Positions 34,826-36,832 of a stretch of DNA of 64,000 bases are shown in pieces. Under the pieces are notes generated by a model, which saw only the letters and a program-made list of their open reading frames with translations, had not been told where the DNA came from and ran no database searches. Origin of the DNA: Candidatus Geocrenenecus huangii (GTDB taxonomy: Archaea > Thermoproteota > Nitrososphaeria_A > Caldarchaeales > Wolframiiraptoraceae); assembly GCA_023268155.1 (NCBI GenBank), contig JALNKM010000001.1, positions 186,001-250,000 of the forward strand, given 5' to 3'. The translations under genes and the position numbers were made by a program. Within the stretch, counting starts at the first letter, position 1, and each line of letters starts with the position of its first letter.

Positions 34826-35020
34826 CAATCTCCAATATGATGATTTGGAATACTTTATAAAGTTCTCTATTGGGCTAGAGACAACATTGATAAATCCCTT
34901 GATACTTGATGTAAGTAATCTATTCTTGGGAAGTATACCTAAGCATTATCTCGATAATATTCGCTCAGACTATGTGCTCAATATTTTTAGAGCAACTACA
35001 TAGATTTTCTTTGATCTGTT

Positions 35021-36832
35021 TTGAATGAGGCGAGCGTAGGTATTGATGTTATCTTAGGGGCTATCTCGTCCACGACTAGGTTAAAGATGCTGAAGCTTCT
35101 CTCAAAGAAAGAGTCAGGGTACTCGGAGATAATGGATTCATTGGGGATGGAGAAGAATAAGGATGCTGGAAAATTCTCATATCATTTGAAAAAACTTCTA
35201 GATTCAAGGTTAATAGAAGTAAACAAGGAAACAGGCAAATACAAAATATCGAGAATAGGTTTAACGGTACTCGAATACTTGGATAAGCTTGAGAAGACTC
35301 TAGGATTCAAGAAGATACTCATAGTCAGGAGAAGTGAAAACATTGTTGAGCCATTCGATAAAGCTAAGATCATAAACTCGCTCGTAAAAGAAGCAAACGT
35401 GACTCCTAGGCTTGCATCAGAGATCGCCTCAACAGTTGAAGAAAAGCTATACAATCTCAGAATAGAATACCTGACGGCCCCTCTTATTAGAGAGCTCGTC
35501 AACACGGTGCTCCTCGATATGGGACTTGAAAAATACAGGCATAAGCTTTCGAGAATAGGTATGCCAATCTACGATGTATCGAAGCATCTATCTAGAATCT
35601 CAAGTACGGGAGATCCTAGAGAATTCATTGAAGTGTCGTCGAGATCAATAATGAGAGAATACTGTCTACAAGATTTTCTAAATAGGAATATCGCGGAAAC
35701 ATACCTTATGGGTAGGCTAGACCTGTATCCTCTGGATAATTGGCTTACAGGGGTGATCGCTAGAAGTTATCAAGTACCAAGCGATGAAGAAGAACTACTT
35801 GAAGTCGTTACAGATGTTGCTTCGTCAATGATGAATATCAAACATGAGATAAACTTGAGAATAATGGAGGCGAGACAAGTGGAGGCCACCTTCAGATTTC
35901 TAAGATACCTACTTTCTAAAAGCTTCTTGAGGAAGAGATATTTTTCTATAACTTTAACAGCCGATGAATTTGTTAAAAATTATGCTAGAATTTCTGAATT
36001 AGGAAAAATGATTGAAGAACCGAGTGGAAAGATAAGAATCGTGGTCGTAGTTCAGGAACCCACGTATTCTGAACTGTTTAAACTCGATGAGCTCGCTAGG
36101 AGTCTTAGATTCCCTTACGTAGTTACAAACTCTAATGATTCATTGTACTGCGGTCTCCGATTACCTCTAGAAAAAGCCTCCTCAGATATCCACGGATTCT
36201 TTTCCGTAAACTTGATATCGATTGTCCTGGAATCCAATAGAGACATAGACTACATATTGAAGAGAATAAAAGAATTAACTAGCTGCGGTCTCTCAGCTCT
36301 AAATAAGAGAACTAGCGTTTTCCAACAAATGTACGGTAAGAGATACATCTCTGAAATCTATTACTCCTGTTCTATCTGGGGATTATTTGAAGCGGTAAAG
36401 ATCGTGTATGGTGTTAGTCCACAAATCTCGAAAGAATCTTTCTCCCTCTTCACCGACATCATACAATGTTTCATTGATTCTCTCAAAAAGTATACAGGCG
36501 GGAAGGGTAGATTGTATATGTCTTCTAGGGTCCCGAGTTCCTCAGCTAGAAGAATGCTTAGGTCGGTATATCATAAATTAGAGTTGGACGAAATCAAGAA
36601 TAATAGCGATTATAGTTACTTGATGGTTCCGCCAATGATAAAATTCAGGAACATTGAGGAAAGGGCATTACTCGAATCTAGGATTGCTTCATATTTCGAT
36701 GGTGGGCATCTATCGATTGTTAAAGGATATAGGAGAAGGAAAGTAATCGAGGAGGCTATAGTCTTATTCCAACACTTGGAGAAGACGGGTATCCCTTTCG
36801 TGATAAGGTTTGATGAAGACCAGCGAGGTTAG
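35021..36832 (+). CDS. HTH/ATP-cone/NrdD-like regulator without glycyl-radical domain
   Basis: 603 residues, three parts. 1-90: ArsR-like winged helix (SSTTRLKMLKLLSKKESGYS, FSYHLKKLLDSRLIEV). About 97-186: ATP-cone (ILIVRRSENIVEPFDKAKII, APLIRELVNTVLLDMGLEKY), the nucleotide-sensing module of ribonucleotide reductases and NrdR. About 200-600: an anaerobic ribonucleotide reductase (NrdD) core, seen as AETYLMGRLDLYPLDNW, SLYCGLRLPLEKA (Cys377), FFSVNLISIVLES and SYFDGGHLSIVKGY. The Zn-binding and glycyl-radical C-terminus is absent, so no radical catalysis is expected. It is probably a dNTP/ATP-responsive repressor. TTG start; convergent with NAC, 4-nt overlap. Confidence 0.8.
   Translation: MNEASVGIDVILGAISSTTRLKMLKLLSKKESGYSEIMDSLGMEKNKDAGKFSYHLKKLLDSRLIEVNKETGKYKISRIGLTVLEYLDKLEKTLGFKKILIVRRSENIVEPFDKAKIINSLVKEANVTPRLASEIASTVEEKLYNLRIEYLTAPLIRELVNTVLLDMGLEKYRHKLSRIGMPIYDVSKHLSRISSTGDPREFIEVSSRSIMREYCLQDFLNRNIAETYLMGRLDLYPLDNWLTGVIARSYQVPSDEEELLEVVTDVASSMMNIKHEINLRIMEARQVEATFRFLRYLLSKSFLRKRYFSITLTADEFVKNYARISELGKMIEEPSGKIRIVVVVQEPTYSELFKLDELARSLRFPYVVTNSNDSLYCGLRLPLEKASSDIHGFFSVNLISIVLESNRDIDYILKRIKELTSCGLSALNKRTSVFQQMYGKRYISEIYYSCSIWGLFEAVKIVYGVSPQISKESFSLFTDIIQCFIDSLKKYTGGKGRLYMSSRVPSSSARRMLRSVYHKLELDEIKNNSDYSYLMVPPMIKFRNIEERALLESRIASYFDGGHLSIVKGYRRRKVIEEAIVLFQHLEKTGIPFVIRFDEDQRG

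Follow-up and report, generated by a model that had tools for sequence, protein, structure and literature searches.

The protein encoded at positions 35021..36832 (+ strand) of the window, the whole stretch of 64,000 nucleotides from Candidatus Geocrenenecus huangii that was analysed here, represents a family that probably regulates transcription of ribonucleotide reductase genes and derives from a class III reductase; we place the probability of this reading at about 0.72. A preliminary description, made from the sequence of the window alone, had proposed that a reductase was turned into a regulator. This idea is now supported by three features of the family: the catalytic site has been lost family-wide, the HTH is conserved, and in several lineages the gene is coupled to that of a reductase, nrdJ or nrdD.

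The gene starts with TTG and encodes a protein of 603 residues. Its three-part build of winged helix, ATP-cone, and degenerate NrdD core, as first described, is borne out by Pfam together with profile and fold comparisons, and the Pfam matches to HTH_5 and DUF7347 at the N-terminus confirm that a DNA-binding domain lies ahead of the core. This domain, an ArsR-type winged helix (residues 13-85; 35057..35275, + strand), corresponds to DUF7347 over residues 13-85 (E 4.2e-8) and to HTH_5 over residues 19-66 (E 1.4e-6). Within the winged helix is the signature GKFxYHLK (residues 50-57, + strand), in which G50, K51, F52, Y54, H55, L56, and K57 are invariant in a 41-row alignment. The head is like that of ArsR/SmtB proteins (HTH_5; NCBIfam NF033788, 32.6 bits, below the cut-off of 55), but the window protein differs from them in having no cysteine within residues 1-95 and in having nucleotide-sensor and reductase domains attached. 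The metal-binding cysteine motif of ArsR/SmtB proteins is itself not universal in that family. The second domain, the ATP-cone (residues 101-172; 35321..35536, + strand; Pfam ATP-cone, E 2.9e-8), is an element established as a reader of ATP and dATP in reductases and in NrdR. The third, identified from an AlphaFold model and from fold and profile comparisons, is the degenerate class III reductase (NrdD) core, which spans residues 197-599 (35609..36817, + strand).

Taken as a single sequence, the window protein offers weak support for a relation to NrdD. The Pfam NRDD match (residues 391-593, E 5.5e-6) scores 25.8 bits against a cut-off of 26.2, and 27.2 bits, above that cut-off, when neighbouring residues of the frame are included. 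A sequence search of the PDB with the window protein alone returned no NrdD, the sole match being an ArsR protein at E 0.67, and a search for related loci with the same single query found no relatives; with the alignment as query, 42 loci were found.

At the level of profiles and predicted folds, the NrdD relation is settled. Compared with a profile built from 12 true NrdDs, the 41-row alignment that the window protein heads gives a probability of 100 and an E value of 1.2e-52 over 522 columns. In the AlphaFold model of the window protein (mean pLDDT 86.6, pTM 0.75), residues 197-599 align with 8p27_A over 390 residues (Z 25.7, rmsd 4.0 Å); the model aligns with 1h7b over 387 residues (Z 24.1, rmsd 3.6 Å), and its top match in Foldseek is 9d3x_A (E 1.9e-15). 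These lengths agree with the earlier statement that an NrdD core is recognisable over about 400 residues. A relation limited to the cone had been named as the outcome that would speak against this origin; the profile search and the AlphaFold comparison with NrdD instead found the relation to extend through the core. A longer relative from Bathyarchaeota (L084, 737 residues; AlphaFold pLDDT 81.3) is closer in fold than the window protein, with 449 residues aligned to 8p27_A at Z 32.9 and rmsd 2.5 Å, and its C-terminal residue falls opposite residue 585 of 1h7b. The models were built without templates. NrdD was possibly learned in training, and thus it is the profile comparison that provides independent support; in addition, the fold comparison barely probes whatever lies beyond the reductase and cone regions of the models.

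The catalytic site was compared between 107 members of the family and 20 sequences of the NrdD type, one of which (L278) is truncated. The catalytic residues, labelled according to the biochemistry of the NrdD family, were located by alignment with the NrdD of the window's own genome. The first active-site cysteine is present in none of the 107 members versus all 17 of the NrdDs aligned there. At the CCRL pair, no member has cysteine in the first column and 3 have it in the second; anywhere along the CCRL stretch, cysteine occurs in 8. The cysteine that had been read as occupying the catalytic CCRL position is C377 (in YCGLRL; 36149..36151, + strand). It lies one alignment column before the pair and is common to just 3 of the 107 members, and it is therefore not a retained catalytic residue; both the earlier assignment and a retained catalytic cysteine in the window protein are rejected. 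The column of the radical glycine contains G in 4 members versus 19 of the 20 NrdD-type sequences, the remaining one being the truncated sequence, and none of these 4 members has a cysteine in the CCRL stretch.

The window protein also lacks the glycyl-radical motif at its C-terminus and the four zinc cysteines, just as the preliminary description had stated. Across the family, however, all four zinc cysteines are kept in 80 of 107 members. The 27 members without them all come from the window's class, where two sequences outside the set of 107 (L029 and L030) still have CxxC...CxxC. Some members end at the radical loop, such as L084, which terminates in CPSCGSISTLTTFNRFAFT. The loss was thus staged. 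Other parts of the reductase have been retained. The Asn of the reductase INLPR motif, N397 in the window protein (36209..36211, + strand), is present in 107 of 107 members, and the first and second glycines of the GG strand are found in 103 and 101, respectively; the window protein has the GG of FDGG, so that the strand is recognisable, as noted at the outset. The ATP-cone is kept in most members. In L041-L046 (genus g12) the cone has lost its VRR and EPFD motifs, whereas the HTH and the core can still be recognised, and judging from this worn sequence, these members may respond to something else.

Thus, the family is like NrdD in its core fold, the order of its elements, its ATP-cone, Asn, and GG strand, and, in the 80 members, its zinc knuckle, but differs in being without the catalytic residues, in a radical segment that is missing or altered, and in the HTH in front. 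The retained fold and Asn, the 4 members with an aligned glycine, and the 8 whose CCRL stretch contains a cysteine (in its second column in 3 and one column before the pair in 3) might be taken to mean that the protein is an active reductase, with radical chemistry of another kind or with its glycyl-radical piece supplied by a separate gene. This is very improbable given the universal loss of the first active-site cysteine and the finding that a CCRL-stretch cysteine and an aligned glycine occur together in 0 of 107 members. Furthermore, a live reductase of the class I/II type (PF02867) is encoded by 43 of the 44 genomes of the window's class and by 72 of 72 ammonia oxidisers.

The family is widespread. 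Within the 44 genomes of its class, the window protein alone finds a match at E 1e-5 or better in 40. The four others constitute genus g11, in which a profile search gave HTH-sized matches only in three genomes and none in the fourth, with no full member detectable. Among the class matches listed, only that of G041 has an internal stop. Across 398 genomes, all of them from Thermoproteota, a 20-row profile at E 1e-15 or better matches 285; this is an upper bound, since the tally takes in genomes matched only through true NrdD-like sequences. The phylum matches listed begin at profile positions 1-11 and therefore include the HTH. Archaeal AmoA is encoded by 72 of the 398 genomes (families f7, f41, and f45), and the regulator profile matches every one of these. 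True NrdD is present in 7 of the 44 class genomes, a further 6 in the NRDD tally having been matched through the regulator itself. The window's own genome (1,697,407 bases in 21 contigs) is among those that encode a separate full NrdD (C12:209523-211250, 657.5 bits), and the ORF adjoining this true nrdD is read, from its sequence, as nrdG.

In a tree of the core, a single branch divides 48 members from 19 NrdDs (97/92; 98% of bootstrap trees), although certain rows have long branches or odd composition. The tree fits a family that is one clan with a single origin. An oddity or pseudogene confined to the window was considered and rejected, given the matches in 40 of 44 class genomes and the phylum-wide distribution. 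That the whole family is a decaying, functionless relic is scarcely credible. The cores are very divergent and the branches long, the ATP-cone of genus g12 is worn, and g11 is without a full member; but long open frames persist in those 40 genomes and across numerous further families of the phylum, and both the HTH and the gene order are conserved.

The gene order is most uniform in the ammonia oxidisers. In 61 of the 72 genomes the coordinates of the regulator are available, and in all 61 nrdJ (the PF02867 gene) lies directly downstream on the same strand, with 944-1417 bp (median 1071) between the regulator match and the PF02867 domain; at two loci the gap from gene to gene is 262 and 214 bp. 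Elsewhere, a true nrdD is found 233-511 bp downstream on the same strand at four loci (L083, L244, L245, and L253), and an nrdJ-like gene, again downstream on the same strand, at two (L236, 83 bp; L248, 159 bp). Of 19 usable representative loci, 7 have a reductase neighbour; the other 12, some of them cut by contig ends, have none in the flanks examined. The flanks of the loci from the window's class, examined to up to about 8 kb, contain no reductase gene, and in the window's own genome nrdJ lies about 40 kb from the regulator gene on the same contig. The 12 loci without a neighbour and the lack of any in the window's class count against a regulator of reductase genes.

Two other features of these genomes were observed. 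A separate ORF of 94 residues in Ca. Geocrenenecus dongiae (L064:5124-5405) encodes an ATP-cone on its own and is located a short distance upstream of the regulator. The nrdJ frames of G026, G028, G021, G042, G010, and G097 are 1266-1306 residues long, about 400 more than elsewhere, and the match of the G028 frame is split; these over-long frames probably carry inteins.

The pairing with genes for live reductases, like the retained reductase fold, would also suit a regulatory partner, in which the dead core associates with a live NrdJ or NrdD to tune its activity while the HTH functions mainly in assembly or self-control. However, the HTH signature is among the best-conserved parts of the protein, and nrdJ belongs to a different class from the core. 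Consequently, a partner of this type is improbable.

The preliminary description had suggested a search for an operator upstream of the nrd genes. In the window, a candidate operator, CTCAATATTTTTAGAGCAA (34977..34995, + strand), lies 26 bp before the start codon and is conserved in five species; a block resembling CTCAATATTTTTAGAG precedes the regulator in these five species of Geocrenenecus, and an inverted relative of it is found about 150-170 bp before nrdJ. When a matrix of the regulator block was used, the best site was the nrdJ block in 4 of the 5 species, which 3 of 5000 column permutations equalled, the regulator block having been picked after the nrdJ block was seen. A choice-free scan finds the same pair of blocks; at width 18 each of the two shuffles gave 0 of 200, and at width 14 they gave 4 and 2 of 200. 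Larger choice-free runs at widths 16, 18, and 20 gave 6, 8, and 12 of 1500, and 19, 11, and 23 of 1500 with block shuffles. Within the class, a block shared before regulator and nrdJ is not significant in 8 of 9 genus groups; it is significant in the remaining one, at a level uncorrected for the nine groups and two widths tried.

Sites with the genus pattern number 17, 20, 27, 15, and 39 in five genomes versus 7, 12, 12, 11, and 16 with the reversed control. Good matches at the regulator and nrdJ are partly circular because the pattern was designed from both blocks, and in G027 the regulator and nrdJ sites are both beyond 3 mismatches of it. The sole perfect match to the genus pattern in the window's own genome falls within an ORF. 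Together, the sequence comparisons are suggestive of an operator shared by the regulator and nrdJ in this genus; the block before the regulator, given its position 26 bp from the start codon, may be a core promoter element. A different sequence, the palindrome TGGCCA, is found within 400 bp upstream of nrdJ in 25 of 41 class genomes (e.g. L160, L136, and L152) and before the regulator gene in 7 of 40. It is also present before nrdJ in genus g11, where no regulator is detectable, and is possibly a further control site of nrdJ.

In the ammonia oxidisers, the candidate elements are clusters of GATC. For 16 species of family f7, the 250 bp before the regulator contain a mean of 4.4 GATC (range 2-9) and the 250 bp after it a mean of 3.8 (2-5), versus a control mean of 0.85; the species sampled are relatives of one another, and the region before the regulator may overlap the end of the preceding gene. 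The control comprised 246 overlapping windows from 129 intergenic stretches in five of the 16 genomes, and four or more GATC occurred in two of them. With the two regions pooled, GATC tops the 256 tetramers in enrichment (16.5 vs 3.7 per kb). When the regions are taken singly, it ranks first before the regulator and second in the regulator-nrdJ gap, or first and third, respectively, when the set is seven species that differ in genus or group. Successive sites are most often 10-12 and 18-22 bp apart, corresponding to one and two helical turns. From these counts, the GATC clusters are shared candidate elements before the regulator and nrdJ.

Clusters of three GATC are also found elsewhere. In two genomes searched throughout, 3 of 22 (G167) and 4 of 39 (G055) fall in the two regions and 19 and 35 outside them. 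These outside clusters, and the loci described above that are without a reductase neighbour, would be explained by a DNA-binding regulator whose wider regulon covers replication or cell-cycle genes and includes the reductase genes as only some of its targets. Nevertheless, triple clusters of the reversed control pattern number 18 and 26, almost as high as the GATC counts, and most of the outside clusters therefore look like chance; moreover, the pairing with nrdJ or nrdD recurs. A wider regulon is thus unlikely, though it merits some weight beside the preferred reading of a regulator of reductase genes.

The nearest functional analogue is NrdR. According to two reports (PMC9110341, PMC12176259), NrdR is an RNR-specific repressor and is rare in archaea. 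The window family is like NrdR in having a DNA-binding head joined to an ATP-cone and in its placement with reductase genes; as proposed here, self-control would likely be shared, and ATP/dATP sensing is presumed. In contrast, the head of NrdR is a zinc ribbon whereas that of the window protein is an ArsR-type winged helix without cysteines, and NrdR has no reductase core whereas the window protein carries a whole dead one. The 8 NCBIfam families listed for the window protein (up to E 1) do not include the NrdR family TIGR00244, which has no match in the protein's own genome either. In the 398 genomes, TIGR00244 scores above cut-off in 35, of which 34 belong to family f5 and one to f34; any match at E 1e-5 brings the number to 39 genomes, none of them from the window's class or the ammonia-oxidiser families. 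The lack of a listed NrdR match for the class and for the ammonia oxidisers supports the earlier idea of a regulator built independently of NrdR.

All 35 of the genomes with NrdR also match the regulator profile, and thus the two coexist there; a strict replacement of NrdR as the rule is rejected. In family f5, where 34 genomes have NrdR over the cut-off beside the regulator of the new type, the two may share the work. On defining features that were tested, the window family falls outside both NrdD and NrdR. In the literature searched, which leaves most subscription journals outside and constitutes no proof of absence, neither a description of an HTH-fused NrdD nor an account of the control of reductase genes in Thermoproteota was found; term searches of PMC9110341, PMC12176259, PMC3019208, PMC4390871, PMC2795772, PMC9669993, and PMC9531940 brought up no mention of an HTH-fused NrdD.

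How might a dead reductase work as a regulator? The winged helix would bind sites before the reductase genes and before its own gene, and the ATP-cone would sense ATP versus dATP, as in reductases and NrdR. Binding of nucleotide would then alter the assembly of the dead core, and the DNA-binding heads would move. In this proposal the core would supply the assembly and perhaps old allosteric pockets, and therefore nucleotides would alter the grip on DNA. By analogy with NrdR, the likeliest direction of control would be repression when dATP is high. A more far-reaching and rather doubtful idea is that Thermoproteota recruited a class III reductase, on a single occasion, as a gauge of DNA precursors. 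The cone would then read dATP/ATP and the old specificity and substrate pockets the dNTP balance, and in ammonia oxidisers, as in many other archaea, the live reductase's promoter would be informed of both amount and balance.

Ammonia oxidisers with archaeal AmoA have an aerobic lifestyle. For these organisms, the family provides a concrete candidate regulator of reductase genes in 72 of 72 amoA-bearing genomes, paired with nrdJ in 61 of 61 for which coordinates are available. If the reading is true, it would explain why aerobic ammonia oxidisers have a gene resembling that of an anaerobic reductase, and it would caution against annotating members of the family as anaerobic reductase. It would also mean that an essential enzyme has been reused as a sensor for its own product.
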